64,000 nt of DNA from positions 45,029,986 to 45,093,985 of the forward strand of contig OZ024875.1 in the NCBI GenBank assembly GCA_964017185.1, in the 5' to 3' direction. The stretch is from Rugalucina vietnamica (lineage: Eukaryota > Mollusca > Bivalvia > Lucinida > Lucinidae). Positions 3,296 through 59,011 of the stretch are shown here, one piece after another (position 1 is the stretch's first letter; every line of letters begins with the position of its first letter). The notes beneath the pieces are model-generated. The model ran no database searches and was not told where the DNA came from. It was given only the letters and a program-made list of their open reading frames with translations. A program made the translations under genes and the position numbers.

Positions 3296-3340
<45 letters not shown>

Positions 3341-38500: not shown

Positions 38501-41500
38501 ATGAACCATGGGTTCCTTATGGAATCTTTGAAACTCGAATATCAGCGAAAGTTTTGTTAACATTTTGGCTCCATATGTTATGTATTCAATTCAGGCATAC
38601 ACTGTATATCATCGCAAGATCTGGAAGTTTTATACACAGAGTAAATATTTACAGACATACTTAACTCATTATATAAACACATTCATCCAGTTGTCCATTT
38701 CTTGCCAGTGACGATGGTTCAAAAACAAGAACTGTTGTCAATTTATTTCTGAATATCGTAGCGGTATATTAATAACCGAACGCACCTTGTGGCGTCTTCG
38801 AGTTACCAGTGTAACGAATTCAATAAACTTTCATGAATCCTTTAAAGAAAAGCAAAACTTTAACTTGAGAAGAATGGTCAGATCTGAACAAATGTTTAAA
38901 TACATGTGATACATAGAAGATTTTCCATGAAACTGTTTCTTTATTATGATTTCCACTTTAGTCAAACCGTATAAAATGGTATAGCGATAAGAGGCAATGT
39001 TTAGGACGTAAAATTGTTTGCAAGACAACATACTGTAATCGAATGTTTCAAACGTTTATGTATATCAGGCCACTCTGGACACTCAGCAATCGGCGGACAG
39101 CCGTAAACAGCTGTACGGGGTAGACGAAAACGAGGACCGCGGTAACTGGACGGGGAGGTTTGACTTTCTGTTGTCGTTGCTAGGTTACGCTGTCGGCCTT
39201 GGCAACGTCTGGAGATTTCCGTATTTATGCTACAGGTATACGCTTCATCACAATACATCTTTGGTGTTACGTACAGGAAGTTGTATAAAATGTAGGAACA
39301 GCCCGCTGTACTTGATACCATTCCTGATCGCATGATTTGATACGTACAACTAACCTATATATTTTTCCCGCCACGAAAGTCTGCAATCACATGTTTGTGA
39401 CAAACTATTGCTTAAACTATCGAACATAGGATCTGCATTCGTTACACCAACCACTAACATCCAAACTGACAAAAACTTTTCTTCAGCAAATGTACCACCT
39501 CCAGCCCATTCCAAAAGTATAAAAATGTAAGATTTTCTACTTACATGTTTGAGCAGCCATTGCAAAACCAAAGGCGCAGATCAAGACACCAAAGACGGAT
39601 ACAATTCTTCTTCCGCTTAAAACATGGGCCGAAATTCCAAGATTTTAGCTCACCTGAGCCGAAGGCTCACAGGTGAGCTTATAGTATAACCATGCTCCGT
39701 CGTCCGTCCGTCGTTCACAATTTCAAAGATCTTCTCCTCTAAATCCGCTTGGCCAATCAAAGCTAAACTTCATGTGGAGCATCTTTAGGAAGGGGGAACG
39801 AAAGTTAATATTAATGGTCTAGGTCACATGACCAAGATGGCCACCATGTCTATAAATAGCAAAAACCTTTAAAAATCTTCTTCTCCAGAACCAGTGGGCC
39901 GATTTCCACAAAACTTGGTATGTAGCATCGGGGACGCAGGCCCATTTTATATAAATCATGACCCTAGGATGACCTTGACCTATTTCACGGCAAAGTTAAC
40001 TTAGGTCGCCAATGCATTTGAATGGGAAAAAATGGTAAAATGCTATTTAATGGGTAAAACTTACTGGGAATAGGCAAATGGACAGAAGATTAATGTTAAT
40101 GGAAAATTTTAGCCCCTGGAGGTTTGTTTGCCCCTGCCCCGGGGCTATATAAATGTATACTGAACAAAAAAAAGAAACGCAACAATAGGCCACCGAGGAT
40201 TTTCTAGTTTAAGGGTAAAACGGTAATTTAAGGTCTGTTGCTGTATGATTCCCATTCATGGTATATTAGGGTATATCATGCAAAAAAAAACTGATTTTCA
40301 TTTCGATAAAAAATGAATGAGAAGTTTTTGTCGTCTTAAATAATGCAAATTGGGAAAATTTTGCTCAGCGCATGCGCACACTTTTGAAACTCCAAATCAC
40401 CAAGAAACAATGTCAGCTGCTCCCTAAGTAAAATTCATGAAAAAGAAATAAAGTTCAACGACGCACAAGCTGGTAATTAAAACCATCAAATCCCTATATG
40501 TTTAATTGAAAGGGGGATAATTTCAATTTTATTCAGTTTATTTCTTAAACGCGTGAGTTATCTGCTGAATGGTACATTGTGGTTTTGAATGAGAGTTTAT
40601 AGCGGATTTGAATCGTATCATTATTTTAATGCTCACGCATGCGCACTGTGTGGGTTACTACTTTCAGCATGCACATGGTCGGCATCGAATAACTCCATAA
40701 ATACACATCAAAATGAAACTCAGTTTCTTGCATTCGGAAGCCTGATATCTTATGCAGAAGTAGAAAATGCAATGATTTCTGATTGTATCATAGTTTGCTA
40801 AAAATTTAGTGAAATATAATTATTGCGTTTCTTGTTTTGTTAAGTATGTATTTCCATAATAATGAAACATCTTCTCCCCTGAAACCGCTTGGCCAATCAA
40901 AGCCAAACTTCATATGGAGCATCCTTGGGAAGGGGGAAAGAAAGGTTATATAAATGGTCAAGGTCACATGACCAATATGGCCGCCATGGCTATAAATAAA
41001 AAAAAACCTTTAAAAATCTTCTTCTCCAGAACCAGAAAGCCAATGATTTTGAAACTTGGTGTTAAGCATCAGCGACTAGAGCTCTACAAAGTTTCTATAA
41101 ATCATGACCCTGGGATGACCTTAACCTATTTTACGGCAAGGTCAACATAGGTCGCTCATGCATTTGAATGGAGAAACGTAATTAAATGTTATTTGTAGGG
41201 AAAAACTTGCAGGAAATGGGCAAATGGACTTAAGATTGATGATTCTGAAAAAATTTGGACCCCAGGCACCCCGGGACAATATACATGTATATACCAGTGA
41301 TATTCAAAGATCTTCTTCTCTGAAACTGCTTGGCCAATCAAAGCCAATTTTATGTGGAGGATCGTTAAGAAGGGGCAATGAAAATTTATATAAATGGTCA
41401 TGGTCACATGACCAAGATGGCTGCCATGGCTAAATATAGCAAAAGCCTTTAAAAATCTTTTTCTCCAGAACAGAAGGCCCATGATTTTGAAACTTGGCAT

Positions 41501-44500
41501 GAAACATCAGGCAATGGAGCTCTACAAAGTTTATATAAATTGTGACCCTTGGATGACCTTGACCTATGTTACGGCAAGGTCAGTTCAGGTCGCCCATGCA
41601 TTTGAATGGGGAAAATTGTTAGAATGTCATTCGAAGGGCCAAACTTGCAGTAAATTTGCAAATGGACTAAAGTTTTATGATTTGAATAAGAAATTGACTC
41701 CAGGGTTTGCTCTCACCCGGCCCTGGGGTTATATACATGTATATTACCATTCTAGTCAAACAGGTTTATTGGTATATATCTCAGGTTTCAGGTGAGCGTT
41801 TACAGGACCATTGGTCCTCTGGTTAGTCTTTGCCTGTGCCTGTACATGCCGGTTTGTGTAGGACCTGGTCGGAATTTTAACGATGCACCATACTGTCACT
41901 TTTCGATAATGTTATATGTAATTCATCTGCAGGAATGGTGGTGGAGCCTTTTTGATTCCATTCGCCATAATGATGGTGATTGTGGGCGTTCCTCTGTTTT
42001 ATATGGAAGCTTCGATAGGACAGTTTACCAGCAGTGGCCCAATGACATGTTGGAAGTTTGCCCCGCTTTTCAAAGGTATACTTGTCAACTCATACTAATC
42101 ACATATTTACGTATATTTAGCTTCACAAAGCAAAATAGTCAAGATATTTTAAGACGCAAAGCCTTCAAACAAGCGGTTCCTGGAAAATATTCTGTACTTT
42201 CTTACAAACTGGATAATTGAAATAAACTGAGATCCCTTAAGAGCAGTGAGCATATTAATTAGAAAAGGGATTGGCCATACTTAAGTCTCTTCAGTGACCC
42301 TGTAGATTTGGCAAAATGGAGCCAAAGAAGAATACTGGAATTTTGCAACTTTTAACAGAATAGTCGATGCAAAGACCAGTATTATCCAAACAGAGCCAAA
42401 TAGTCATCCGCACACATTGCTTCTTTAATCCGTTTTGTGACATATTGTTTCAGATCTCACTTGAAAAGACGTTGTAATGGGCTGTCTGCTATTTCGTTAC
42501 CGTATCAAAAACTATTTTGAATAGCAGTTACACTGTTTTTGTTATAAGTATTACAATTTACAAGTATAAAATCGTTCCAGTTTCTTTTCTAGGTGTCGGT
42601 ATATCCATGGTTATGGTATCAGCTATGACGGCTATCTACTATAACACTGTCCTGGCATGGTCATTCTACTATATGATTGTGTCCTTCGCCAGTGACTTGC
42701 CATGGAGTAATTGTTATAATATTCTGATTACAGGTGTCGGTATATCCATGGTAATGGTATCAGCAATGACAGCTATCTACTATAACACAGTTCTGGCTTG
42801 GTCGTTCTACTTTATGTTTGCCTCCTTTACCAGTGACCTGCCCTGGAGTAATTGTAACAATGACTGGAACGGGGATTGTAAGTTTTTGTCCCCTTATGGA
42901 TAAATCAAGCCGAGGCGGTTCTAACGAGTACCCCGAATCTATGTTTTGAAGCAAAAATAAGAAAAATAGGTATATCCCTGCATACCCCAGTTTTTTCTAT
43001 ATGAAGGTGGGGTTTATTGCACGGACATACTTTCCTGATGTAACTTATGTGACCAAATTCGTCAGTGTTCGCTTTGTTTCAAGACATTGACAATTGTAAA
43101 CTGTTGCTGTTTGCAGTATAATTATTTTAGGCTAAACTTTTTGTCAGTACACCCGACAAATTCACGAAAATCAACTTTTGCATTACCGTTCTGTTTCTTG
43201 TGAGAGAATAAAAATCATTTTCATGATGATTTAGATTGCCGGGACAAGTTACCACTAATGGAGTGCACTGATGGCGCACAGACAAAGAACCCCAACGGGA
43301 CGTGTTACTCTGAGGGCCAGCTGATCGGGGTCTGGAATGATACCGTGTTTGAAAATAAGACAGGGATCAGCAGGGTCTCCCCGGCGGAGGAGTATTGGAA
43401 GTGAGTGTTGACAATATGTGTTAACATGAGCAAAATTTTGGCCTGGCTATACTCTATCAGTAGAGAACTATTGGAATATTACACGTATAGATCCTGAAAA
43501 GTTTTATGGAAACCATTATGAACAAAAAGAATATACTCATCAGCGGTTTAGAATTTAATAGTATTACGCATTGACTATTTTGCTTATTTCAATGAGAAAT
43601 GCTTTCCCACATGCTAGAATGCGTCGGTACGGATTGAATTTATTTACCGTTATTTACTGTCCGTGCGAAAAGTGGTATAACCTTATTACCGTGCATCTTT
43701 GAATTATCTGTTATCATATCATACCCATGCCAAATGAATGACTGACACTGCACACTTAAAGACCTATTCCCATGTCTATTGAGGGTCATTAGATAAGGGC
43801 CAGGGCATTAGAAAACCCAGTGCCCAGACAATGACTCAGAATACAGGTAGGGGCAAAACAGGAAAAATCAATATTGATTGCAGAGGGAGGCAGTTTTATT
43901 GCACAGGTTATCAGGGACCATAAAATCAACAAACATTGCAACTACATGTATCATCCTTTAGGGGCCTCTTTATGACCCCCTGCAGAGATGTGATAATCAC
44001 CTCATTATGACAGTCCTTTGATCTAAGGACCATATTGCACCATTAGGGTTCATTAACTGAATAAACAGTGGTACCACTTCTAGCTTCTTCAGAAGTAGGT
44101 CTTTAAAACATTATCAATTTCAATTTCAAATAAATTAACAAATAATGTAAAATGTCATTTATACCGATTGGCTACATTCTCCGATGGCCCCGTACATTCC
44201 AGGAAAAGATCTGAATATGGAAACTGGAAAATATCTGAGCCAAATACAATACTAATTTTGGTGGCACAATGCACGCACGTAGTAGCTTCTCAGTTTACTT
44301 ATGACTTGAATCTTTGCTTCTTCCAGTAATGAAGCGTTGAAGATGAGTTCTGGTATAGATGTCTACGGTCAGCCTATCTGGTACCTTGTCATGTGTCTAA
44401 TGTTGGCCTGGATTGTGGTCTTCTTTTGTCTTATCAAGGGAATCAAGTCAACTGGAAAGGTAGAACATATTCATTTTACTTTAGTGCTTGTGCATGTAGA

Positions 44501-47500
44501 TCTTTCACATAGCTTATATTGCAGTTTTTGAATAGCTCGTGGTACACACCTCAAAACGCATACGATACATTCGAAACAACAAAGACATCCAGAAGACCTT
44601 CTCGGTTGTCCAACTGTCCTTGTGCTGTAGTACAATGCTATAGCAGAAACATATTTTATACTTCCAAACGAAGACGCATTTTTCTTTAAGTCATTGGTCC
44701 TTTCTGTGTGTTATTCACTAGATTTGTTTCGTGGAACCCTATAAGAGCAAAACCTACATGTAACTAGAAACATGTATACCTTCCAATTTTCAGGTGGTCT
44801 ATTTTACAGCAATATTTCCCTACATAGTCCTAGTGATCCTGTTTTTCCGTGGAGTAACGTTAGAGAATGCTGGCGAGGGAATCAAGTTCTTTATTATACC
44901 GAGATGGGAACGGCTAGGAGATGCCAGGGTATGTTCGGCTGTCTTATTAGGAAAAAAGTGCTTCAAATACAACCACCAAATTAAGCCAATAAGGGCCCAC
45001 ATTAGCTTGACGGTGTCGTTAAGCCCTCAATTTGTTAACTGGATATGGACTTCAAAAGCAAATACACTGTTATTTTTTTGGTGATAAAATGTGAGAATCC
45101 TTTGCATTGCAAAAGATTCTCATAATGCAAAGGATTCTCATTTTATCAACAAAAAATAAGAGTGTATTTGAAATATTCATGTTTGAAATTTTAACAAATC
45201 GTTAACTAACGACATCTCGTTAATTTTTAACAATTGGGCCAAAGTTTATAATTTTTAACATTTGGGCCTGCCCAAAGTTTATACACGTATATGTAAGGAT
45301 CGTTTGGCTTGAACTTCTTTTCCTAGGCAGACTCAGACCAGAGCGGTTAACCAGTAAACCAGGTGGTCAGTCAGAAGTGTATAAGCTTTGCCTGGAGGCA
45401 CATGCAGCCCATCTATTTGCTAAGGCTTCAATGAGCAGGGTCCCCGAAACATGTTTTAATGAAAATGTGCTCATTAGTGCGGATATGTCTACTTACAATA
45501 TGATAAACGCATGTTTTGGCTATCAACAAAGATTAATAGTATGCGGAGTCGAATGATGGTGTATCGGAGACAGCAAAAGATCTTGTTACATTTCATTTTG
45601 TCCTGTCGAAAAGTATTCGCCTTGACCAAAAGGTTTCTACGATCCCGGCAGGATTCGAACCTGCAATCTCCTGATCCGTAGTCAGGCGCCTTATCCATTG
45701 GGCCACGGGACCAGATGGAAATGAAGAAATTTAATTTTGCATTTGTGTGATTAGGGGCATTGAGAGGTCAATGGATGCATGTCATTGTATAGACAAAAAT
45801 CAATTTCGAACTGAAATTCAACAGTCATTTCATAGCGCTTAATAAAAAGAGAGCTTCAAAAGTGGTCATTTATAACTTTGTTTCGGTTTTTCATTTATAA
45901 TTGATAACAACATATGAAGAGTATACACATATCTATGTTTACATTGACATATAGAAACGCATTAAAATGGAATGGTTTTAACAACATTTAGGTATGGAAG
46001 GACGCTGCAGTGCAGATATTTTTCTCCATGTCTATTGCCGGTGGAGGATTGATAACACTCTCCAGTTACAACAGATTTCACAACAATATTCTCAAGTATG
46101 TTATTAGCGGATGCTAACCTGTTCAGTGTTGCCACCCATTTTATCGGCCTCTCGACATTTTCAGCGCTCTGACGTTTTCTTTACTACAATTAAAGTGCGG
46201 TGCGGCGTTTACATAAGCTGAAAAAAATCTTAAGTTTCAGACTTTCCTTCTGAATTAGGTAGTACATTATATTCACCATTGCTATAATTTCACTTTCCCA
46301 TAACACATGTATGAAAGGTATTTCATGAAAAAAGCAACAACACAAAACAGGGCAGTTTCTCGTGGGCAATCAATTCAATTTCCATTGAAATTGGCACTGT
46401 GACTGCGGTGCGTATTAAAAAGCCTTGTGTTTTCAGAGACACGGTGATAGTATGTCTAGGTGATTTCTTCACATGTATATTCGCTGGTTTTGTCATCTTC
46501 TCCTACCTGGGATTTATGGCGGGAAAACAATCGACAACCGTTGATAAAGTTGCACAAGATGGTATTACTATATAAATGTTTTATTTACTTATTATTATTT
46601 AATCTAACTCCCTAGCTCTTTAATATGTTTTTGTTTGTTTCACTTTTCACTGTGAAAACATCTTCTGTTAGACAATTATTCAAGATATGGTCATAAACAT
46701 ACAACCCCACTTGGTGGCACAGTAAAAACTCTTGATTAGTTACAATAAACATTCGTGTGTCATCCATTTTTAATTAAATAGTACGTTTGTGTCAATAAGG
46801 GCTGCTAAGGTCATATGGAACGCATGATGGCCACAAATCACGGTTCTTGTTAATTTTATTGGAGTGTTTTGTGATACATGTACCATGGCCAGTGATGACT
46901 CTTTTTATGTCTCCCCCCGACAGGGTCGGGAGACATATTGTTTTTCCCCGTGCGTCTGTCTGTCCGTCTGTCTGTCCGTCCGTCTGTCCGTCTCAAATCG
47001 TGTCCGCTCTATAACTTGAAAACCGTTAAAGATTTTTCAACGAAACTTGGTACACTTGTAAACCATGACGAGACGATGTGTCATGCACAAGAACCATAAC
47101 TCTAGCTTGAATATTTTTGGAGTTATTTCCCTTTGATTATTTTCGATACAATTTCGTGTCCGCTGTATAACTTGAAAACCGTTAAAGATTTTTCAATGAA
47201 ACTCGGTACACATGTAAACAACGACGAGACAATGTGTCATGCACAAGAACCATAACTGTAGCTTGAGTATTTTTGGAGTTATTTCCCTTTGATTATTTTC
47301 GATACAATTTCGTGTCCGCTGTATAACTTGAAAACCGTTAAAGATTTTTCAATAAACCTTGGTACATTTATTAAGCATGATAAGACGATGTGTCACGCAC
47401 AAGAACCATAACTCTGGCTTGAGTATTTTATGAGTTATTTCCCTTTGATTATTTTCCATACAATTTCGTGTCCGCTTTATAACTCGAAAACCGTAAGAGT

Positions 47501-50500
47501 TATTTCAATGAAACTTGGTACACTGATAAAGCACGATGAGATAATGTGTCGTGCTAAAGAACCATAACTCTTGATTGCATATCTTTGGAGTAATTCCCCT
47601 TTGATTGTTTTCCATACAATTTCGTGTCCACCCTATAACTTGAAAACCGTAAGAGAAATTTCATTGAAACTTGGTACACTTATAAAGCACGATGAGACGA
47701 TGTGTCATGCACAAGAATTATAACTCTTGCTTTCATATCTTTGGAGTTATTTCCCTTTGATTATTTTTCCATACAATTTCATGTCCACTCTATAACTTGA
47801 AAACCATAAGAAATATTTCAATGAAACTTGGTACACTTATAAAGCATGATGAGATGATGTGTCATGCTAAAGAACCATAACTCTTGCTTGCATATCTTTG
47901 GAGTTATTTCCCTTTGATTATTTTTCATACAATTTTGTGTCTGCTCTTTAACTCAAAAACCATTAGAGATTTTTCAATGAAACATGGTACACTTATAAAG
48001 CATGATGAGACGATGTGTCATGCTCAAGAATCATTACTCTTGCTTTCATATCTTTGGAGTTATTTCCCTTTGATTATTTTCCATACAGTTTCGTGCCCGC
48101 TATATAACTTGAAAACCGTAAGAGATATTTCAATGAAACTTGGTACACTTATAAAACAGAATGACAGGATATGTGATGCACAAGAACTATAACTCTTGCT
48201 TGTATATTTTGGACATGCATGTAGAAAGGGGGGAGACATCAGTTTTCACATAGAAAACAAATTCTAGTATGAAAATTGGCTTCCTTTTACATGCCAAACT
48301 ATGGTAGGCTAAATACATTCCACCCCTCATCAGGGAAACATGTCCGTAAAATATATACCCCCTTAAACCCCACTTTTATAAAGCAAAACTGGGGTATGCA
48401 GGGGTATACCTATTTTTCTTATTTTTGCTCAAAAACATAGATTATGGGTACTCGTTAGAACCGCCTCGGCGAGGCGGTTCTAACGTGTACCCTCAATCTA
48501 TGTTTTGAGCAAACATAAGAAAAATATCATTTTTTTTTCAACTGAAAATTTTTAATTTTTAAAAATCAAAAAATCTCTGTTTATTGCACGGGTAAGTTTT
48601 CGTAATTTTATTCCAGGTGCTGGTCTTGCATTTGTGGTGTATCCAGAAGCAGTGACAAATCTTCCAGGACCGCCACTGTGGTCAATACTATTCTTCTTCA
48701 TGTTAATAACATTAGGACTTGACAGTCAGGTAGGAAAAAATCAAGGATTTAATACATTGCGAAAACATGCCCATATATTATTATTATCATTATACATTAT
48801 TTTTCTCAGCTCGAAAACCAAAAAAAATAAAATAAAAAAAGAAATAAATAAAATAAATAAATAAATAAAAATAAATAAATAAATTAAAGCTGAAAAAATG
48901 ATATTTTTTTCTTATTTTGGCTCAAAAAATATGATTATGGTTACACGTTAGGTTCTAACGAGTACCCAGTATCTATGCTTTGGAGCAAAAATAAGAAAAA
49001 TAGGTATACCCCTGCATATCCCTGTTTTACTATACTCCTCAAAAGAAGTTTAGCACCATTTAGATTTTTTCATATTTTTAAGTGACATTTTGACTTAATT
49101 ATTTTAAACCTACCTTTTTGAATTTACACAGTCTGAAAGAGTTTGATAAAGTGTATGATAAGACAAAAACGATTTTAAGAAAATTTGAAAATTCCCTTTT
49201 TTTGTAAATACTGAAAATTTGAACATCGAAAAAATTCCACCTCAAACGTCACAGTGTTCAGAACACATTTTTGTTTCCAAATTCACAAACAAGAGCTCCA
49301 AAGCAAATGATTGAGCCAAAAAAAAACAATTGAAAGAATCTCAAACTTTGGGTAAAAATGCATTTTTTGACAAAATTGCATTTTTTGACAAAAAATCATA
49401 AATATTGGAGAAAATGAGTAAAATCAATAGCCCTATTTTGGATCAATATGGGATGTTTTGAAACCAAAACATACCACCTCTTTTCTTGCTCTTAAAGGTG
49501 ATCTCATGTCAAAGATACAGCATAAGCACTTTTTGAAATGCAGCTTTTTAAAAAGTCTGAATTTGGACGGGTTGAAAAGCAGTACCTAAGTTTAGCAGTC
49601 AGGGGCGCTGCATGCTGTGTTTGATGCTAAATCAACCCATTTTGTTGGAGAGATGAGTGATTAAGCTTTATCTGAGAATTTAAACAAAGTCTCAAAAATC
49701 GTTATTTTTGGTCAAAAATGGCATTTTTGTCCTGAAAATTCAATTTTTATTTTTTTTTTTTGCTTTAAATGATTGCTTTCATTGTCTCGAGTGAGGATGT
49801 GAAATGAATTCAGGTTTGGATGCCCAGAAATAGAGGTGTGGGCTTTTTGCTGCATCCCAAATTCTGGTGTTTTCAAAAACATGCATTTTTGCACTTTTTT
49901 ACTTAATCTTTTCAAGACAAATTATTGCTTTGTTGTTCACAAAAACCAACCCTTTAGGATAGTATCAATTATTAAAAGTTCTTTGAAAAAAAAAATGTAT
50001 ACTAAACATTGTTTTAAAATGAGAAAAATATTAAGTGGTGCTAAACTTCTTTAGATGAGTATATATAAAAGTGGGGTTTAAGAAGTATTCATTTCATGGA
50101 CATGTTTTCTTGATGATCTACTTGTGTCTACTCGTGTATCTTCTCGTTGTAGGAACCAGATACTTTGCTGGCTGTTTGCTTTTTCATTACTGCACATGTC
50201 ATGGTAGCATACTGTATTGCGTATGTACCATATTATGTGTGTTTCTGTAAAGACGAAAACACCATATTGAACTGCCACTCGTCGATGTATAGAGGATATT
50301 TGCTTTTTTTTCGGTGAATACCAAATTTATTTCATCGAGTGAGTTGAAAACATCAGAATTTTCACGAGTGCGCAGCACGAGTGAAAATTTTTATGTTTTC
50401 AACTCACGAGATAAAATATATTTGGTATTCACCAAATAAAGCAAATTGGTTGGGGCCGGAGCTTCTTGTCTGTTGCTTGGCCCACCGGGGTCTAACTGAT

Positions 50501-53500
50501 GTTTTTCTTTTGCTCCGGAGTTAGTAAGTTATTCGGCGCCCAGGGATCTCCATCGTCGGGCAGCTTACTGAATCTGTGAGTCCTGGTTTTTGATTCATCA
50601 GGATGTTTATCTTGATTTATTTGTTTGTTCTTGATGATTCATTGACTAGTTAGAGATTCACCACGAGGACCGAAGAACTAACTAAATGTTATGAACCACT
50701 GCAGAAGCTGAGGGTGAGGTTATGACCATGTAAAATCGATTTAAACCCGCCAGTAACTTTGTGTGACTGAGTCGATACTTCTGTGGTGGTTCTTTTCGTT
50801 TTATGTCTTGGTGTTTAAAATATTTTTGTGCTGTTGGCGCCTTATGTATGTTTTCATATTTTTAGTTAAGGTAACTGAGTGGCCACCTATTGGGAAAATA
50901 GCTGCTCATTCGGCTTACGAAATGTTTTCATGGTATAAGTGCCTGATTGTTGGTTTGGTTTTTTCCCACCTCGGTTTTTGGAGTGGGAATCTTTTTCTGA
51001 TTGCGCCTTTTCCTGATCTTTGCCTACTTGTACCTTTTTCTTTTTATTTTATACAATACACGGGCATTTTCCAATTCACAAGGCAGGCGGTGAAAATGCA
51101 AAACCCAAACATTTTTGAAAACACAAATAATTTTGGTACCACATTGTTCCTTACGTTCTAACTAAGAAAATAAATACACACACTTTATGTTTTCGTTCAT
51201 AAATACGGAGTTATAGGCGTTTGAATTTCTGAAGTGAGACACATTTAATGACGTCAACTAAATGGAAACGTCAGAAGAAATCCAAAGTCAACAGTGAAGA
51301 TATAGGCTGATATCAGTCACTAGTGACTTTTGATATCAGTGAGATTTGATATCAGTGAAATTTCACATTCAATGAAAATACCAATTTCATCAAGTTTTGA
51401 TATACATTGGTTTTTAGACTATACTGGTGAAAATTCTTGAAATTGCAGCAATCATGAATGTCTGGCTTTCGCTGCCAGTTTTGTAAAGGGTCATTACCCG
51501 AAATTGTACAATATGGCCCAACTCTCTTTGAAAGTTTTTACTGCTTCCAAAGGATCTAACAATTATATTTTATTTGCTATTACTGCAGCTGGTGTTGTGC
51601 CGTGTGGCGGCCCTAAAAAGTCTCCCCGTACATCATCCATAGTGCAGATTATATTTTTATTTTGATCCTTTGAGATCAGTGAAGATATTTGGAGTATTTC
51701 AAATATACTGTACGTTAAGGATCATCATCTTAGCAGAATTGTGCATATTTGGCCCCTTTGGGAATATAAGTCTTTGATTTAGACTAAACTGTTGAAAATT
51801 CTTGAAATTGCAGCAATCATGAATGTCTGGCTTTCGCTGCCAGTTTTGTAAAGGGTCACTGATGAAGGTTCATTACCCGAAATTGTACCATATGGCCCAT
51901 CTCTCTTTGAATGTTTTTACTGCTTCCAAAGGATCTAACAATTATATTTTATTTGCTATTACTGCAGCTGGTGTTGTGCCGTGTGGCGGCCCTAAAAAGT
52001 CTCCCCGTACATCATCCATAGTGCAGATTATACTTTTATTTTGATCCTTTGAGATCAGTGAAGATATTTGGAGTATTTCAAATATACTGTACGTTAAGGA
52101 TCATCATCTTAACAGAATTGTGCATATTTGGCCCCTTTTGGAATATAAGTCTTTGATTTAGACTATACTGGTGAAAATTCTTGAAATTGCAGCAATCATG
52201 AATGTCTGGCTTTCGCTGCCAGTTTTGTAAAGGGTCACTGATGAAGGTTCATTACCCGAAATTGTACAATATGGCCCACCTCTCTTTGAATGTTTTTACT
52301 GCTTCCAAAGGATCTAACAATTATATTTTATTTACTGTAAAGTATAAAATAAACATGTATCTTTATTTGAAATATACATGTAACTAAACAGACATTTATT
52401 TTTGAAACTAAATACTCTGATCAAACATTTTTGTTAGTGCCTTTGTAGAAATGCAATTATTTAAATCAGTTATTTAACTTGACCAAGTGGTTGCAAGGTG
52501 AAAGTAGGCAATGATCAGGGAATAGTGCAATCAGTAAGAAATTCCCACTCCAAAAACCGAGTTGGGGAAAAACAGATTTTCATACTAAGGGAACATATTG
52601 TGAGCTGAGTGAGACCACTCAGTTACTCGAACTTAACTAAAAGTATCAAATCGTAAATAATCTGCAAACAGCACAAAAATTCAACACCAAAAAATAACCA
52701 GAGGACCAATGGTCCTGTAAACGCTCACCTGAGATCTGCTTCAAATACCAATAAACATATTTGAATATTATGGTATTTAACCCCAGTGCAGGGGCAGATA
52801 TTTTTTCAGAATAATCAATATTCTGTCCATTTGCCAATTTCCTGCTGATTTTCCCCTTCAAATAACATTTTAAAAGCAGATGAGCCCCTGGGGTCCATTG
52901 TTTTTCAGAATCATTTAATTTCAGTCCTACTGCCCATTTCCTGCAAGACTTTCACTTAAAATGACATTTTAAAAGATTTCCCCATTCATATGCACTGACA
53001 ACCTATGTTGACCTTGCCATAAAATAGGTCAAGGTCAATACAGGGTCATGTTTTATATATTCATTGTAGTACTTGAGTCATCCATACTTCATGCAAAGTT
53101 TCGTTGAAATCGGTTCACCGGTTCTGGAGAAGAAGATATTTTAAGGGTTTTTACCATTATATGGGCATGGCTGCCATCTTTGTCATGTGACCTGGATTAT
53201 TTATATATACATTGGTTCCCACTTCCTATAGATGCTTCATATAAAATTTGGCTTTGATTGGCCAAGTGGTTTCAGAGAAAAAAATCTTTGAAAAGTGTGT
53301 ATGGACGACAGACCGGAAACCTTGACCTAAATTCATATACCTTCATCTAATCCATAAGTTGTTTGCATCTACCACTTTTCAGATCTCAGGCTGCAATAGT
53401 TTTCAAAAAATAGCGTATTTCCACTTTTCCCATTATAAGTCTATGGAAACTTAAAGTTACCACAGCAACCAGAGTTCTTATCTGACTGAAATAAAAAACA

Positions 53501-56500
53501 CAAATTATGTAGAGGCTACTGTCAGGAACATGTATACAAAGTACAGGATTCATCCACTTGACAGTTTCTGAGGAAAAGATTTTTTAATGTTTTTTTTTTT
53601 TTTTTTTTTTTTCAAAATTTTGCCCTTTATGGGGCCCCAGCAATCAATCAAAATAAAGGATTAGGACAAAACCCGCAAGAAACGTCAAACACTACTCAAT
53701 AAACATTTCTGCAAAAACAAAATTCAAATGTCTGCAATTTTAGCGGAAAAAAGCTGATTTCCACTTTTCCCATTATAAGTCTATGGAAACTTTAAGTTGC
53801 CATAGCAACCAGAGTTCTTATCCGCCTGGAATAAAAAACACAAATTATGAAGAGGCTACTGTCAGGAACATGTATACAAAGTATAGGCTTCATCCCCTTA
53901 ACAGTTTCTGAGAAGAAGATTTTTGAATGTTTTTCGAAATTTTGCCCTATATCGGGCCCCTGCAACCAATCAAAATGAAGGATTAGGACAAAAATCACAC
54001 GAAACGTAGAGGACTACTCAATAAACATTTCTGCAAAAACAAAATTCAAATATCCCCAACAAGACAGCAAAAACAGGCAATTTTCACTTATTTCCATTAT
54101 AAGTCTATGTGGTTTCAGAGAAGAAGATCTTTGAAATTGTGGACGACGGACGACGGACGGACGGACGGACGCCGGAGCATGGGTATACTATAAGCTCACC
54201 TATGAGCCTTCGGCTCAGGTGAGCTAAAAATAAAACAAATGTTCTATGAACGCTTTTGTCAAGAACTCCTTCAATCTATTGTAGTTTGCCATGGTAGAAA
54301 CAGTCCTGACTGGCTGTATGGATCAGATGCCTCACCTGAGAAAGTATAAAACATTCGTTATAGCTGTGATATGTTGTATATTCTTTATCCTTGGACTACC
54401 ATTAACATGTCCCGTAAGTATATTATCCCGTCTTAAGTTTGCATCCGTGAAGCTTGACATTAGAAAAACATATTCATGCTAACATAATTCTTACTTGTTT
54501 CTCCGAAATGTACAATTAGTTTAAAGTCCCATCAAGCTCTACTCAAGTTGCTCAGACCATTAACATATTAAATGTACAATTAGTGTAAAGTCCCATCAAG
54601 CTCAACTCAAGTTGCTCAGACCATTAACATATTAAATGTACGCTTTGGTCACCGCTTTGACATTGAAACTTGGACCCTCCCAGGCTCCTTCCAGGGCCTC
54701 AGTATTAGCTTCATCTCTTATTTTAACGATAACAAACCTGCCTTCTGGGGGAGAAAACAGCGGTTGCACATGTATTATGCCAAAACAACATGCTTAATGG
54801 TAAAATTTCATGTTGATGGTTTCTTTTCTACAGGGTGGTATGTACCTACTTCAGCTTATGGACAACTATGTCGGCGGTTGGACATTGCTGATGATTGGCT
54901 TTGCTGAAAATATGGCCATAGCCTTCTGTTACGGTAATCAAAATAAGAACTTATATCTGACTCTTAACTCAGATGTGACAAAATACATATAGTATGATCC
55001 AAGCTTTGATTGGGAAGTTACTCAGTATGATTAGTTTATCTCTCATAGCTTATAAACCGTTGTGAAATTATTAGAATTAAATAGACAGGGAATATCTTTC
55101 ATGTGAGTTCTGACGATGGGCACACACAATTTATTGAAGACTCGTTATAGTACTATTTATTATATAACTATAAATAGACAGCATTTCAGACAATGCTTTC
55201 AGTCCATTGCATATTTTGTCATATTCTATGACCTGGGGTTTTTCCCATTGAATATATGTTACTAAATTTAGAACTCTCTCTGTCATTAGAAATGTACATT
55301 GATTACTGTCAAGCAGTAATGCCGATGAAGTACAAATGATGTTTATTGTTGTTTAGTTTATTTGAATTTAGACTTTATGTCCCAATGAACATTTTTTCAG
55401 TCATGCTGGGACTATATGTAAACTATATGTATACACTAATTCATCTACAGATAAAAAATAGTTATTTTAAAATTATTTTATCATGCTTGTATAAAAAGGG
55501 TGTTATATAATAAAACAATTGTTGACTATTGAGTCATTGAATATGATGTGATATCCAACAGAGACTACCAATATTGACCTCGGCTTCGCCTCGGTCAATA
55601 TTGGTAGTCTCTGTTGGATATCACATCATATTCAATGACTCAATAGTCAATAATTGTATAATATTTACAGACATCACGTTAAATACATTATCTTTCCAGT
55701 GACCCTGCTAGTAAACAAAACTCTTGCCTTCTTTCAAATTGTTTCCAAATACTGTAATTTGAATGAAACTTATTCTTCTCCAGGTTTAACTCGGTTCTAC
55801 AAGGACCTAGAGGTAATGCTGGGTTGGCCCCAGTCTATCTGGTGGAAAATCTGTTGGTATGGACTAAGTCCTGTTGCAGTTATGGTAAGAGTTTAAACGC
55901 TTAGAAACGTACATGGCATGCATGACGAAAACTTGCACATGCGATATACAGAGACTTCTTCAGCGTAAAAATTGAAAATTTCATTTGAAAAAAATTGATA
56001 TTTCTTATATTTTCGCTAAAAACGTAGATTTTGGGTACACCTTAGAACTGTCTCGCTGAGGCGGTTCTTATAGTTAGGCTGCTTTACGAGTATCCACAAT
56101 CTACGTGTTGATGAAAAATAAGAAAATTGTATATCCCTTCACATCCTAGTTTTACTTTATGAAATACAGGAGGGTGTGCAGGGATATACTTTTATTATAT
56201 GGCAAGTGATGAAATATAGAGAAATATGTATTAAATATAACCCATATTTGAAAAAGTTATATTTTCACATGTGAAAATATAAAAAAGTTATATTTTCACA
56301 TGTGAAAATATAAGATTTGGGAATACGCAAATTACGATTCCACCGTTTCATTTCTAATTTATACATAACTAAATTTTATAATCTATGCTATTGTTGACGC
56401 AATGAACGTTCACACACAATAGCGACCTAATGACGTGACGTAATGACGTCATTTAAGATTTTGACGTCATATGCTTTAGCGAGCAACGTTACAATGACTA

Positions 56501-59011
56501 CATGCAATATAATAAAAAGAAAATTCAAATTTTTGGAGTGAATATGAGTTTTATTTCATCTCGTGAAGTGAAAAATTATATATTTCATTCGTGCCTTCGG
56601 CACTCATGAAATATAAAATTTTTTCACTTCACTCAATGAAATAAAACTCATATTCACTCCAAAAACTTGAATATCCTCTATTTAATGGACATGTTATCCT
56701 GGTGCGATAAAAACACATTTTTGCTGCATTTTGATCTTGTGATGGACGGAATCAAAAACACGCGGCCTATGCAGTAACTAGTAAAGTGTATAAAGATTAT
56801 GTTTCAAGATTGCATGTAGCCAAGTCATACATGTATGTATACAGAACTCATTCCAGATTGTATGTTCTTATTTATTTGCTTGATTTAGTTGACTATATTT
56901 TTTATTTTGTATAATACATTTTACGATTTACTTAGAATGGTTCGATACCTGCTAACTGTTGTACGTATTGTCTGTTGCAGTTTATATTTGTGTTTACATT
57001 TGTTGATTACACACCGTCGACCTACGGAAAGTACCAGTACCCAGGCTGGGCTGATGCTATAGGCTGGATCCTAGCCTGTGTAGTTATAGCTCCTATATTT
57101 ATTGGTATGGGGTACCGGTTGTATGAGGAGGAAGATTACCATAGTCCGCTTGAGGTGAGAAAAGCCAATGACAAAATGGCGCTGTAAAATCTATTTCCAC
57201 CTCAGATATTTTATTCCTGTTAGAATTTTGCATTTTGTGTGTGAAAATATGTATTTGGATCATGTAAATCTGGACCCAGTTCTTCAAAGCATCGTTAGCT
57301 TAACGATATCGTTAAGACATAAATTTGTTAAGCAAATATCAGCTAAAGTAACATATACACTGTTATTTTTTGTTGAAAAAAATGTGAGAATCCTTTGCAT
57401 TTTTTGTTGAAAAAAATGTGAGAATCCTTTGCACTGGAAAGGATTCTCACATTTTTTCAACAAAAAATAACAGTGTATTTGTAATATTAACGTTTGAAAT
57501 TTTAACGAAACGTTAACTAACGACGTCGTTAATTTTGAACAACTGGGCCCTGGTTGAAGCCTTCATGCATCCAATGCAATACTTTTGACACGGTTCAATT
57601 TGTTTTACGTTTTTGTGTCGAATATGTATGCTATTTGTGCCTTGTATGTTCGTATTTATACTTAATTAAGTTCGGGCAACTGAGTATTCACCTCTAAGGA
57701 AAACAGCTGTTCGCTAAGCTGACGAAATGTTTTCTGCGTATCAGTGCCTGATTGTCAGTTTTTTTCCAGCACGGTATTCTAGTTTGGTATTCTAGTATTC
57801 TAGTTTGGTTTTGATTCCTGATCATTGCTTACTTTTACCATTTCAATATCAATTTCTGGTCCATCGATTTTTACTTTATAGTCATTCTGTGTACAGTTTT
57901 TGCTATCAAATTAAATGTTATTTCAATTGTTTTTATTTTGTTATTTTGCTTTTGAGTGTTTATATCGGTTTAAAACGTATCATACAGTGATATGTACAGA
58001 TATTAACTGTGTATTCGGTTTAGCTACATTTGTTTCTTTACCTACATCAATTACATGTAACTCTTTTATGCCTGGCGTACCTTTTATGGAACATAGGCAA
58101 ACAGCATAGCCCCAGATGTGACGCCACAGACAGAACGCGACGTCCCATATGGGGCTATTCTGTTTGCTTGGAGGAATTTCATCGGAAAATGAAAAAAAAA
58201 ATAAAACTCACTCCTAACACCCCTAAAAATAAAAGTGGACTCACACAAATGATTACGATCGTAAAATATGGGTTTATTTGAATGTCCCTTGCTCTTTTAA
58301 CCACGTTCAACCGCTGTTTGACATTTTCCTTCTTCAGAAGTTAAAGTATTTAATCACCCCTACCCGAGACTGGGGTCCCGCCTTACCAAAACACAGAAAA
58401 CTTATCGACTATGTAGAAGGCTGGGTGGTCGACCCCATGGCGGAGAAGATGGCACATGTCTATAGCAACAGAGGATTTAGCAGTAAAGCGGATCTACAGG
58501 TAACCGATATACGAATAGGAATTGGAATTGCGGACGGCGTGTATTTATCTACATGTATCTCTTTATACTGCCACTCGCCCTCACGGAAATTCTATGCAGG
58601 CCAGGGTGCCACAGTTGGCATTTTGAAATAGCCTTAAATTAAGTTTATTTCTTCAAAAAGTTTGCATGTGATTTAACTCGGTTGTTTTCACTTGGCTCTT
58701 TCTATTTTTAACCCATTTATGACTTATCATTATCATTTATTTAATTATTTATGACGTTATATTTGTTTATCGTTCGCATATAACAATATCGTTGTCTTCA
58801 TCATTTTCAGAGTATGGACAGCAAGTCATCTTCAATGGACATCCAGCATAAACTCGATAAAATTTACACAATCGACGATAATCTAGGCACCCCGTCTATT
58901 CCATCTATAGCTTCGTCAACTGTAAACCTATCAAGCATTCAGAGCACACCGTCATCTGTTGGGGGAATATCAAGAACAGCTTCACATGTGACGTTGGAAT
59001 CTCAAGTTTAG
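35487..59011 (+). CDS. Gene B: complete SLC6 glycine-transporter-like gene (17 exons)
   Basis: This gene encodes a 12-TM Na+/Cl- coupled plasma-membrane transporter. The exons join in frame to 751 codons including stop, giving 750 residues with the short form of exon 5 or 797 with the long form. TM1 ([15 protein letters not shown]) is near residues 91-105, TM3 about 157-180, the glycosylated loop about 185-258, TM6 about 356-378 ([20 protein letters not shown]), TM8 with LGLDSQF near 457-463, and TM12 ends before [20 protein letters not shown] in the tail, CYRNGGGAF and VWKDAA resemble GlyT1/GlyT2. At TM6 a Ser (about 362) sits where GlyT2 has Ser and GlyT1 has Gly. The Trp usual three residues later in glycine transporters is Gly (about 365). 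The C-terminus ESQV fits a class I PDZ ligand. Substrate is therefore inferred only as glycine or a small neutral amino acid. Confidence 0.92.
35508..36946. other. Gene B intron 1, nothing recognised
   Basis: AT-rich, with no element ends or conserved frame seen. Confidence 0.5.
36947..37081 (+). CDS. Gene B exon 2 (cytoplasmic N-terminus)
   Basis: The exon is 135 bp, phase 0, from a TTCTACAG acceptor to a GTAAAT donor. It encodes [15 protein letters not shown]... with two Tyr-containing acidic stretches ([14 protein letters not shown]). The segment is polar and probably cytoplasmic. Gene A has no recognised counterpart. Confidence 0.75.
37206..38792. repeat. Long inverted repeat in gene B intron 2
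   Basis: The left arm from AGGTGCATTCGGTTATTAAT (37206) to about 37820 is the inverse of the right arm from about 38150 to 38792. The arms are roughly 600 bp and look 85-90% identical by eye, with a 330 bp spacer. Transcribed as part of the pre-mRNA, they would form a long hairpin. It may be a foldback transposon; no target duplication was clear. Confidence 0.8.
39069..39235 (+). CDS. Gene B exon 3 (pre-TM1 and TM1)
   Basis: The exon is 167 bp with TATATCAG acceptor and GTATAC donor. It encodes [11 protein letters not shown]..., [18 protein letters not shown] and TM1 through WRFPYLCY, ending inside an Arg codon. Gene A carries the same residues in two exons split at Gly-Tyr. Confidence 0.95.
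39643..41825 (+). mobile_element. Pearl-like element with internal tandem units, copy 1
   Basis: The left end is a hairpin (TTTAGCTCACCTGAGCC with GGCTCACAGGTGAGC), followed by CCGTCGTCCGTCCGTCG. Three tandem units of roughly 420 bp then start near AAGATCTTCTCCTCTAAATC and contain ATGACCTTGACCTATTT. The right end reads CAGGTGAGCGTTTACAGGAC. This layout fits the pearl-type non-autonomous elements described in bivalves. A second copy in reverse is at 52697-54226. Confidence 0.75.
40158..40846. mobile_element. Mariner/Tc1-like non-autonomous element nested in the pearl-like copy
   Basis: The ends TACTGAACAAAAAAAAGAAA and the inverse of TACTTAACAAAACAAGAAAC, with TA at both borders. About 689 bp, inside the first tandem unit of 39643-41825. 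Confidence 0.78.
41933..42075 (+). CDS. Gene B exon 4 (TM2)
   Basis: The exon is 143 bp with CATCTGCAG acceptor and GTATAC donor. It encodes [18 protein letters not shown], then [16 protein letters not shown] and CWKFAPLFK. The GQF and FAP motifs are typical of the TM2-TM3 junction of SLC6 proteins. Confidence 0.95.
42593..42877 (+). CDS. Gene B exon 5 (TM3), with a tandem in-frame duplication
   Basis: Two AG acceptors, at 42591-42592 and 42732-42733, lead into near-identical TM3 segments ([17 protein letters not shown]), 141 bp (47 codons) apart. The reading frame stays open through both. Only the second copy has a proper end (NNDWNGD then GTAAGT at 42878). Using the second acceptor (42734) gives a normal 144 bp exon equal to gene A exon 4. 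Using the first gives a protein with TM3 and part of the next loop repeated. Confidence 0.88.
42906..43041. mobile_element. Half copy of the palindromic GAGGCGGTTC MITE
   Basis: Only one arm is present, from the centre (GAGGCGGTTCTAACG) to the end CACGGACATACTTTCC. It begins about 28 bp past the donor of gene B exon 5. Confidence 0.75.
43235..43400 (+). CDS. Gene B exon 6 (second extracellular loop)
   Basis: The exon is 166 bp with GATTTAG acceptor and GTGAGT donor. It encodes [15 protein letters not shown] and NGTCYSEG with three N-glycosylation sequons (NGT, NDT, NKT), ending PAEEYWK. It is the extracellular, disulphide-bearing loop. Confidence 0.95.
43401..44326. other. Gene B intron 6, nothing recognised
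   Basis: No repeat termini or conserved frame were seen. Confidence 0.5.
44327..44459 (+). CDS. Gene B exon 7 (TM4)
   Basis: The exon is 133 bp with CTTCCAG acceptor and GTAGAA donor. It encodes [18 protein letters not shown]4 ([18 protein letters not shown]) and IKGIKSTGK. Length and phase equal gene A exon 6. Confidence 0.95.
44794..44928 (+). CDS. Gene B exon 8 (TM5)
   Basis: The exon is 135 bp, phase 0, with TTTTCAG acceptor and GTATGT donor. It encodes [20 protein letters not shown] and [17 protein letters not shown]. It is the closest match to gene A exon 7. Confidence 0.96.
44985..45238. mobile_element. Palindromic GGGCCCA MITE, copy 1
   Basis: It has ends GGGCCCACATTAGC and AACAATTGGGCC. 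The central arms ATGTGAGAATCCTTTGCATT and its inverse meet at about 45110. Related copies are at 57272-57552 and, worn, at 17585-17795. Confidence 0.75.
45640..45712 (-). tRNA. tRNA-Arg (anticodon ACG)
   Basis: The 73-nt sequence folds as a full cloverleaf. The acceptor GGTCCCG pairs with CGGGATC (one G-U), the D stem is GCC/GGC, the anticodon stem CCTGA/TCAGG holds the loop CTACGGA, and the T arm carries GGTTCGAATCC. The anticodon ACG reads Arg CGU. A-box (TGGCCCAATGG) and B-box promoters are intact and a TTTT run follows about 8 nt past the end. It lies antisense in the gene B intron between exons 8 and 9 and has no encoded intron. Confidence 0.93.
45992..46095 (+). CDS. Gene B exon 9 (TM6, substrate and chloride site)
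   Basis: The exon is 104 bp with ACATTTAG acceptor and GTATGT donor. It encodes [19 protein letters not shown], then [18 protein letters not shown]6 forms the unwound substrate-binding helix. The residue usually Trp in glycine transporters (SxxWGGL) is Gly here. Confidence 0.95.
46437..46561 (+). CDS. Gene B exon 10 (TM7)
   Basis: The exon is 125 bp with TTTTCAG acceptor and GTATTA donor. It encodes [19 protein letters not shown], then [13 protein letters not shown], matching the [13 protein letters not shown] signature of TM7. Confidence 0.95.
46908..48241 (+). mobile_element. Pearl-like element with an 8 x 156 bp core array
   Basis: The ends TGTCTCCCCCCGACAGG and GGGGGGAGACA are inverted. 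A TCTGTCCG microsatellite (46966-46993) precedes eight tandem units whose AACTTGAAAACC landmark falls at 47013, 47169, 47325, 47481, 47637, 47794, 47950 and 48106. A core of about 160 bp next to an ACGG-type microsatellite is the described layout of pearl elements. It lies in gene B between exons 10 and 11. Confidence 0.82.
48328..48605. mobile_element. Palindromic GAGGCGGTTC MITE ending at the acceptor of gene B exon 11
   Basis: A full copy with core GAACCGCCTCGGCGAGGCGG. Its terminus (GGTAAGTTTTCGTA) is followed by only about 11 bp before exon 11, so the element probably supplies part of the polypyrimidine and branch region. Confidence 0.85.
48617..48729 (+). CDS. Gene B exon 11 (TM8 start)
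   Basis: The exon is 113 bp with ATTCCAG acceptor and GTAGGA donor. It encodes [18 protein letters not shown] and [18 protein letters not shown]. The Asp-Ser of LGLDSQF belongs to the Na2 site region. A palindromic MITE ends about 12 bp before the exon and another begins about 30 bp after it. Confidence 0.95.
48761..50113. mobile_element. Palindromic MITE interrupted by a mariner-like element
   Basis: It has ends GAAAACATGCCCAT and GGACATGTTTTC. Its right half is split at TATA by the 1 kb insert 49033-50061. An (AAAT)n tract lies at about 48825-48885. It starts about 30 bp after exon 11. Confidence 0.82.
49033..50061. mobile_element. Mariner/Tc1-like non-autonomous element
   Basis: The terminal repeats CTCCTCAAAAGAAGTTTAGC and the inverse of CTCATCTAAAGAAGTTTAGC are flanked by TA. 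The insertion interrupts a MITE at a TATA site. The AT-rich interior has no transposase frame. Confidence 0.82.
50297..50455. mobile_element. Palindromic MITE (TTTGGTATTCACC arms)
   Basis: The arms GGTGAATACCAAATTTATTT and the inverse meet at GAGTGCGCAGCACGAGTG. The body is almost entirely palindromic. Confidence 0.78.
50456..51039 (+). mobile_element. Retroelement 3' tail, 5'-truncated copy
   Basis: It is co-linear with 21087-21680, from TTGGTTGGGGCCGGAGCTTC to TTTGCCTACTTGTACCTT, at high identity. No reverse-transcriptase part is present. Confidence 0.85.
51414..52335 (+). repeat. Tandem repeat, about 2.5 units of 365-379 bp
   Basis: Units start at 51414, 51779 and 52158 with TTAGACTAWACTG. 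Unit 1 lacks 14 bp present in the others. Units 2 and 3 contain the start of the same open frame ([20 protein letters not shown]). An AG-ending tract (TTGAAATTGCAG) precedes it in each unit. It lies in the gene B intron between exons 11 and 12. No known family was recognised. Confidence 0.8.
52496..52690 (-). mobile_element. Retroelement 3' tail, truncated copy
   Basis: The reverse-oriented 3' tail (AGTAGGCAATGATCAGGGAA, AAATTCCCACTCCAAAAACC) ends where the pearl-like element at 52697 begins. Confidence 0.65.
52697..54226 (-). mobile_element. Pearl-like element, copy 2, reverse orientation
   Basis: The left edge AACCAGAGGACCAATGGTCC and right edge CCTTCGGCTCAGGTGAGCTA are the inverse of 39643-41825. 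It has an ACGG microsatellite (54148-54172) and internal units of about 345 bp marked by CCCATTATAAGTCTATGG at about 53429, 53769 and 54097. It ends about 60 bp before gene B exon 12. A T-run lies at 53588-53612. Confidence 0.75.
54285..54413 (+). CDS. Gene B exon 12 (TM8 end and TM9)
   Basis: The exon is 129 bp, 43 codons, with TTGTAG acceptor and GTAAGT donor. It encodes [20 protein letters not shown] and TM9 ending GLPLTCP. Confidence 0.94.
54834..54933 (+). CDS. Gene B exon 13 (TM10)
   Basis: The exon is 100 bp with TTTCTACAG acceptor and GTAATC donor. It encodes [16 protein letters not shown] and [12 protein letters not shown]. The GGxYxxxLMDNY motif is characteristic of TM10. Confidence 0.94.
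54934..55515. other. Gene B intron 13
   Basis: Contains a SINE-tail fragment at about 55340-55425 (ACTTTATGTCCCAATGAAC). The intron upstream (54414-54833) holds a short direct duplication of a roughly 65 bp block (AAAGTCCCATCAAGCTC, at about 54522 and 54587). Confidence 0.55.
55516..55660. mobile_element. Near-perfect palindrome MITE
   Basis: The arms TTGACTATTGAGTCATTGAA and CAGAGACTACCAATATTGAC are repeated inversely with a short centre (CTCGGCTTCGCCTCG). About 145 bp, with arms about 65 bp and almost no mismatches, so it is recent or homogenised. Confidence 0.85.
55784..55884 (+). CDS. Gene B exon 14 (TM10-TM11 link)
   Basis: The exon is 101 bp with TTCTCCAG acceptor and GTAAGA donor. 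It encodes [17 protein letters not shown] and [16 protein letters not shown]. Confidence 0.94.
55919..56190. mobile_element. Diverged palindromic GAGGCGGTTC MITE
   Basis: An older copy with weakened palindrome (GTCTCGCTGAGGCGGTTC) and an extra segment in the centre. It follows gene B exon 14 by about 35 bp. Confidence 0.65.
56516..56684. mobile_element. Palindromic MITE (GGAGTGAATATGAGTTTTAT arms)
   Basis: GGAGTGAATATGAGTTTTAT on the left is inverted on the right (ATAAAACTCATATTCACTCC) about a GTGCCTTCGGCACTC centre. Confidence 0.82.
56981..57154 (+). CDS. Gene B exon 15 (TM11-TM12)
   Basis: The exon is 174 bp, 58 codons, with CTGTTGCAG acceptor and GTGAGA donor. It encodes [35 protein letters not shown] and [11 protein letters not shown]. 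The YPGWA motif is a conserved element preceding TM12. Confidence 0.95.
57272..57552. mobile_element. Palindromic GGGCCCA MITE, copy 2
   Basis: It has ends GGACCCAGTTCTTCAAAGC and GAACAACTGGGCCC. A 42-bp segment (TTTTTTGTTGAAAAAAATG region) is repeated in tandem on the left arm only, so the hairpin has a slipped duplicate. Confidence 0.75.
57632..57840 (+). mobile_element. Diverged retroelement 3' tail
   Basis: AACTGAGTATTCACCTC, ACGAAATGTTTTC and CAGTGCCTGATTGTCAGTTT align with the tail family at 50880-51039. It is more worn than the other copies. Confidence 0.65.
58062..58275. mobile_element. Palindromic element, GCCCCAGATG family, second copy
   Basis: It shares the flank CTTTTATGG, the hairpin (ATAGCCCCAGATGTGACGCC) and CCCCTAAAAATAAAAGTGG with 6875-7150. 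It lies just upstream of gene B exon 16. Confidence 0.65.
58338..58499 (+). CDS. Gene B exon 16 (cytoplasmic C-terminus)
   Basis: The exon is 162 bp, 54 codons, with TTCTTCAG acceptor and GTAACC donor. It encodes [20 protein letters not shown] and a charged tail. The RDWGPAL motif is shared with vertebrate glycine transporters as remembered. Confidence 0.93.
58811..59011 (+). CDS. Gene B exon 17 (C-terminal tail and stop)
   Basis: The exon has a CATTTTCAG acceptor at 58810 and 66 codons to TAG at 59009-59011. It is a Ser/Thr-rich low-complexity tail ending ESQV, which fits a class I PDZ-binding motif (S at -2, V at 0). No AATAAA signal was seen before the MITE that begins about 80 bp downstream. 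Confidence 0.9.
   Translation, partial: SMDSKSSSMDIQHKLDKIYTIDDNLGTPSIPSIASSTVNLSSIQSTPSSVGGISRTASHVTLESQV

Follow-up and report, generated by a model that had tools for sequence, protein, structure and literature searches.

A tandem copy of the TM3 exon fused to its neighbor in a glycine transporter-like SLC6 gene of Rugalucina vietnamica: a possible remnant of an alternative exon

Swaps between tandemly duplicated exons are old and rare, entail mostly conservative changes and recur in ion transport, according to the available part of one account (PMC9741552), and approximately 10% of animal genes are reported to carry tandemly duplicated exons in the available part of another (PMC9013439). 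Two further systems involve the short motif AGGT. The units of polyubiquitin genes are divided by dual-specific AGGT sites, described in the portion of the source at hand as weaker than sites with a single use (PMC10809524). Duplication of an AGGT-containing segment can also create introns, a process that the accessible portion of a further paper links to the Rogers model, to ATP2A1 (Hellsten 2011) and to a potato RdRp (PMC4974935). Among the matches listed, titles and abstract openings on SLC6, on bivalve glycine transporters and on exon duplication contain no doubled TM3 exon, which does not prove its absence.

Here we describe such a doubled exon in a window of 64,000 nucleotides (the whole stretch of DNA that was analyzed) from the lucinid bivalve Rugalucina vietnamica. 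It lies in a gene that we designate gene B, and it resembles each of the described systems in part. Like the mutually exclusive tandem exons outlined in the available text of PMC9741552 and PMC9013439, the two copies are homologous neighbors of equal phase with mostly conservative differences, in a gene for membrane transport; unlike them, the copies have no intron between them, copy 1 lacks a good donor, and gene B is known from its sequence alone. With UBC, as far as the partial text of PMC10809524 describes it, gene B shares head-to-tail coding repeats, a unit length divisible by three and an AG/GT at the boundary (the slash marks the potential splice position). In gene B, however, the junction makes a very poor donor, and a product that retained both units would be a disrupted membrane protein, whereas in UBC a monomer is added. 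As in intron gain through AGGT duplication (PMC4974935, in the part available), a duplicated coding stretch could be removed as if it were intronic; in contrast to that process, the stretch in gene B adjoins an existing intron, which it would extend without requiring a new donor. Glycine transporter 2 chains are the best solved match to TM3-TM7 of gene B (E 5.7e-83 over 270 residues). The match runs end to end and includes the TM3 motif and the loop cysteines, but the aligned chains have one TM3 segment at this place.

The stretch of gene B from its TM1 exon, which begins at 39144, to TM7 is recognized as the Pfam SNF family (PF00209; E 8.5e-133, 348 residues, 444.3 bits against a cut-off of 27). 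When the exons for TM1-TM12 are joined with copy 2 as the TM3 exon, they yield 553 codons without a stop, and two further exons after TM12 reach the stop codon (Table 1). Open frames, inspected by eye, and a partial Pfam match guided the placement of the TM8-TM12 exons, a Pfam scan of 46500-56000 having recovered only part of the later exons. Gene B is an intact GlyT-like SLC6 neurotransmitter:sodium symporter, and the match to GlyT2 makes glycine a candidate substrate.

A paralogue, gene A, lies on the minus strand with exons from 22932 down to 885 and later exons beyond the window. The two GlyT-like SLC6 genes (gene A 885-22932, minus; gene B 39144-59011, plus) are arranged head to head. The TM3 exon of gene A is single and served as a control; AGGTA occurs at both of its ends, a microhomology that could permit exact exon duplication. 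An intron of gene A also contains an open frame on the minus strand (2803-3354) with a GIY-YIG endonuclease domain (E 9.7e-8), which we take to be perhaps derived from a Penelope-like element. An open frame of 181 residues at 8546-9088 (plus strand), with a cysteine-rich stretch and without a Pfam match at 0.001, presumably resembles the end of a reverse-transcriptase element. Within gene B, the TM5-TM6 intron carries a tRNA-Arg (ACG) on the opposite strand (45639-45713, minus; Rfam 63.5 bits), the intron after the TM7 exon a satellite-like array with a 156-bp unit (46998-48213, plus; 7.8 copies, 87% matches), and the TM8-TM9 intron a 379-bp tandem repeat (51413-52333, plus; 2.5 copies at 95%). 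The repeats in these introns have a bivalve-like appearance.

The duplication in gene B was detected by two programs. One aligned 42591-42720 with 42732-42861 as a direct repeat at a spacing of 141 (130 nt, 87% identity, 17 of 130 bases differing); the other returned a tandem repeat at 42591-42855 with a period of 141, two copies and a score of 425. By tblastn, copy 1 matches copy 2 with an E of 4.7e-24, a likeness far beyond chance. The TM2 exon ends in AAA G, which sets phase 1 for both TM3 copies, and a single frame runs through the pair for 95 residues without a stop, 47 from copy 1 and 48 from copy 2. The preliminary description of this DNA had likewise reported a repeated 141-bp unit with a frame open throughout. 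It had taken that unit to comprise both acceptor and TM3, and here only the TM3 part holds: the copies share no more than the AG upstream of the exon start, homology begins at this AG, and the 11 bases that precede it align like shuffled sequence. The acceptor itself is therefore not repeated. Homology ends at codon 43, beyond which codons 44-47 of copy 1 (ILIT) are unlike the DWNGD of copy 2.

Table 1. Positions of the TM3 copies and associated features in the window
Feature	Position	Strand	Remarks
Copy 1 of TM3 exon, 141 bp	42593..42733	+	Acceptor 8.98; no good in-phase donor near end
Copy 2 of TM3 exon, 144 bp	42734..42877	+	Conserved FASF...CNNDWNGD end; donor ATT/gtaagt
Non-repeated 11 bases and AG	42721..42733	+	Tail of copy 1 (I-L-I-T), also 3' splice-site region of copy 2
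Junction AG/GT	42732..42735	+	Copy 2 acceptor 8.59; formally an in-phase copy 1 donor, 2.49
Gene B, GlyT-like SLC6 transporter	39144..59011	+	Stop codon 59009-59011; coding resolved from 39144 on
Gene B TM2 exon, upstream neighbor of copy 1	41933..42075	+	Donor AAG/gtatac; from tblastn and frame
Intron before copy 1, 517 bp	42076..42592	+	Ends ttcttttctag; yTnAy branch-point candidate TTTAC at -33
Gene B exon for extracellular loop 2	43235..43400	+	Starts with second loop cysteine; phase suits both copies
Gene A TM3 exon, single, 144 bp (control)	19352..19495	-	From tblastn and exon model

At the protein level the copies differ at Y/F27, I/F29, V/A30, A/T33 and Y/N42 (copy 1/copy 2), in addition to the ILIT tail in place of DWNGD. 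Copy 1 retains AIYYN and LPWSNC, and its changes affect the outer end of TM3 and the loop. At positions 29 and 30 gene A and GlyT2 share the residues of copy 2 (FASF, against IVSF in copy 1), from which it follows that copy 1 is the one that changed there; at position 27 GlyT2 has the residue of copy 1 and gene A that of copy 2. Scored with its junction against the family profile, copy 1 reaches 45.7 bits against 57.8 bits for copy 2. A tblastn search with pieces of gene B TM1-TM7 found no third TM3 copy in the window, returning the single exon of gene A and weak TM3 matches with E of at least 0.13, which were set aside. Direct repeats of at least 25 bases are absent from 18500-20500 around the gene A TM3 exon and from the two introns that flank the copy pair. 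The search for relatives of the arrangement gave none in viral_contigs and, in genome_contigs, 15 pattern matches with 0 confirmed.

The pattern of substitution suggests that copy 1 has not always been a passive passenger. Fourteen of codons 1-41 differ between the copies, ten synonymously and four non-synonymously (dS 0.617, dN 0.042, dN/dS 0.069). All seven differences in codons 1-26 are synonymous, the last of them at 42663, although this stretch was picked post hoc for its lack of amino-acid change. An initial count of approximately six differences in the first 55 bases was too high, since 42593-42647 contains three; their exclusively synonymous nature was correctly noted, as was the change of a few residues further on. 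We compared the observed values with a neutral simulation in which copy 2 took synonymous changes only and copy 1 was free for a set share of the time, under three transition biases and from two ancestors. Runs matched on 13-15 differing codons are preferred, because a first simulation without this matching, when run with full neutrality, fell short of the synonymous count that was observed, and thereby overstated the rejection. With copy 1 always free, four or fewer amino-acid changes arose in 0.13-0.67% of matched runs and 1.7-2.8% of all runs; with copy 1 free for half its life, in 4.4-10.6% and 9.4-19.4%, respectively; and with copy 1 free for a third of its life, in 16-28% of runs. That copy 1 was free of constraint throughout is unlikely, and freedom for half its life is borderline. 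Protein-level selection acted on copy 1 for some large part of its history, and a recent release is quite possible. The proposal that the synonymous bias reflects constraint on both copies is thus borne out by the dN/dS of 0.069 and by the simulations for at least part of that history. This constraint may stem from an earlier state of copy 1 as a separate, mutually exclusive exon, an option that the preliminary description did not include.

The matrix used to score splice sites drew on genes A and B as modeled in this analysis (19 acceptors, 21 donors), with both candidate acceptors excluded. In an earlier matrix one acceptor was wrong (58340 instead of 58338), and the scores given below for the early GTs of copy 1 and for TAG/GTGTCG stem from that matrix. 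Both AGs score like real acceptors, as had been supposed: 8.98 for copy 1 and 8.59, a mid-range value, for copy 2, compared with 3.4-15.5 for the 19 real acceptors, each left out in turn. Counting both strands, the window has 6459 AGs, of which 0.9% score at least as high as the copy 1 acceptor and 1.0% at least as high as that of copy 2. The locus therefore has two credible tandem acceptors, in the same phase and 141 nt apart, before one donor. Copy 1 is preceded by a strict yTnAy branch-point match at -33. For copy 2 the single strict match is found at -7, and relaxed matches occur between -15 and -58. Given this difference, acceptor 42592 may be stronger in the cell than acceptor 42733, which would favor the doubled transcript and speaks against copy 1 being a relic.

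Copy 1 has an entrance, then, but no credible exit near its end. Three in-phase GTs in that region score 2.45 (42706), -0.34 (42712) and 2.49 (42733, the junction CAG/GTGTCG). All three lie below the 21 real donors, whose scores span 3.0-8.7, and 28% of 7270 GTs across the window score as high as the junction. Hidden donors at 42706 and 42712 were rejected on these values; with the earlier matrix the former had equaled the weakest real donor, and the GGA/GTAATT at the end of copy 1 occurs in copy 2 as well. Early in copy 1, however, GTs at 42615 (5.0) and 42659 (3.6), both out of phase, and at 42598 (2.5, in phase) fall within the range of real donors in the earlier matrix; their use would cut TM3 away. 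The statement that only copy 2 has a donor accordingly applies to GTs near the end of copy 1. The donor of copy 2 is itself middling to weak, scoring 5.37 with itself in the training set and 3.34 when left out in the earlier matrix, where it is among the weaker of the 21. In a mutually exclusive pair each copy would have its own acceptor and its own donor, and copy 1 presents the acceptor without a good in-phase donor near its end. Recursive splicing at 42592 was also considered and rejected (donor score -2.2 for TAG/GTGTCG).

Compared with shuffles, the 11 bases at 42721-42731 resemble neither the end of the copy 2 exon (P 0.66, or 0.95 with a longer end) nor the end of the upstream intron (P 0.58), as would be expected if they were the remnant of a lost intron. 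Their most plausible origin is the 3' end of an intron that may once have parted the copies. Indeed, when the 20 upstream bases alone are scored, just 2 of the 94 AGs that lie within coding exons of gene B reach the value of the copy 2 acceptor, and so small a number argues that the tail of copy 1 resembles an intron end. Two observations count against this. The T content of the tail is 9/20, compared with 7-13 in real acceptors and a mean of 5.9 in coding 20-mers, and 16% of the latter reach 9. The 11 bases also bear a weak likeness to the end of the gene A exon (P 0.058 when the first 11 bases are used, 0.42 with a longer end), which would fit an exact exon duplication. Such a duplication, by slippage between the AGGT at exon start and exon end and followed by decay of the tail, is possible; we keep it as a minor option, the tail fitting the copy 2 end no better than shuffles and the gene A end weakly. 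Recent gene conversion between the copies was rejected, the differences being spread out with no long identical tract.

The account that we favor, while putting it at somewhat short of an even chance, is that copy 1 is an old alternative TM3 exon that became fused to copy 2 by loss of its donor and of an intron, and that copy 2 is the working exon. The TM3 exon of gene B would have been duplicated in tandem long ago, and copy 1 would have served for much of its life as an alternative, most likely as one member of a mutually exclusive pair whose copies were separated by an intron. A later deletion would then have removed the last part of copy 1 together with its donor and almost the whole of the intervening intron, sparing 11 bases and the AG of the intron's 3' end. 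Copy 1 would thereby have been joined directly to copy 2, leaving two acceptors in competition 141 nt apart. Use of acceptor 42733 would give the canonical transporter; use of acceptor 42592 would give a protein with 47 additional residues and two consecutive TM3 helices. Because TM3 crosses the membrane once, either TM4-TM12 would be inverted or an extra helix would be left over, and the doubled-TM3 protein is therefore expected to be non-functional as a transporter. Copy 1 today would be a formerly functional exon, either in decay or in residual use.

It is tempting to speculate that the upstream acceptor is instead still part of a living switch, with 42592 used in some cells and the doubled-TM3 protein fulfilling a role of its own, for example by trapping or limiting the normal transporter as its inactive partner. 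The similarity of the two acceptors (8.98 and 8.59), the position of copy 1 as the first in order with a strict branch-point at -33 where copy 2 has its only strict match at -7, the open frame of a length divisible by three and the past constraint on copy 1 all agree with this. Nevertheless, a regulatory role alone does not require codons 1-26 of copy 1 to be conserved as a working TM3, and two consecutive TM3s would disrupt the topology; we regard such a switch as unlikely. A plainer origin would be a duplication of 141 bp in one step, with ends approximately 11 bases into the intron and at codon 43, so that copy 1 would be a passenger, open by chance and intronic in most transcripts. This is the simplest geometry; a length divisible by three has a one-in-three chance, and the inclusion of one intron end yields this layout without requiring an intron to have been lost, a point that weighs against the account we favor. 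However, the divergence is old (dS approximately 0.6) and biased to synonymous changes, and the 11 bases match the end of the upstream intron no better than shuffles do, which makes a single-step origin rather improbable in our judgment.

The junction itself could formally act as a donor as well as an acceptor, an option absent from the preliminary description. If AG/GT at 42732-42735 were dual-specific, the two TM3 helices could be mutually exclusive without an intron between the alternatives. Spliced on its own to the exon at 43235, copy 1 stays in frame and gives C-YNILITD-C where copy 2 gives a stretch of 10 residues, and the hypothetical copy-1-only product still scores as SNF (191.3 against 202.0 bits). 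Dual AGGT sites between tandem repeats are also known in UBC, where they tend to be weak according to the available part of the source (PMC10809524). Yet the donor score of 2.49 lies below those of all 21 real donors and is equaled by 28% of 7270 GTs, and the product would be without the loop tryptophan. Of the 19 real acceptors, 7 have GT directly after their AG, so the motif as such carries no information here. We hold a dual-specific junction to be improbable. More doubtful again is the capture of copy 1 in recent times from a close paralogue at another genomic locus, where the constraint would have been exerted. Capture would account for an intact frame in the absence of a present function and accords with IVSF in copy 1 where copy 2, gene A and GlyT2 have FASF. 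Against it, the window contains no such paralogue, the gene A exon being 57% identical in protein over 46 residues, and a precise insertion at the exon start would be demanded. Least probable of all is a false join of alleles or paralogues in the assembly, which the preliminary description had raised in the form of diverged haplotypes. With 17 of 130 bases differing, the dS of approximately 0.6 far exceeds allelic divergence; the join falls exactly at AG/GT and in frame, and reads a few hundred bases long would suffice to span the copy pair.

Mutually exclusive isoforms arise from tandem exon duplications, events that are rare, old and recurrent in ion-transport genes, as the available part of PMC9741552 relates. 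A pair fused without an intron, in which the donor-poor copy was under constraint in the past, would be an intermediate caught in the act, either in the decay of such a pair or in its conversion to competing acceptors. Should copy 1 still be in use, a transporter with an altered outer end of TM3 and altered spacing of the loop cysteines, or a form with a doubled helix, would be of interest to transporter biologists.
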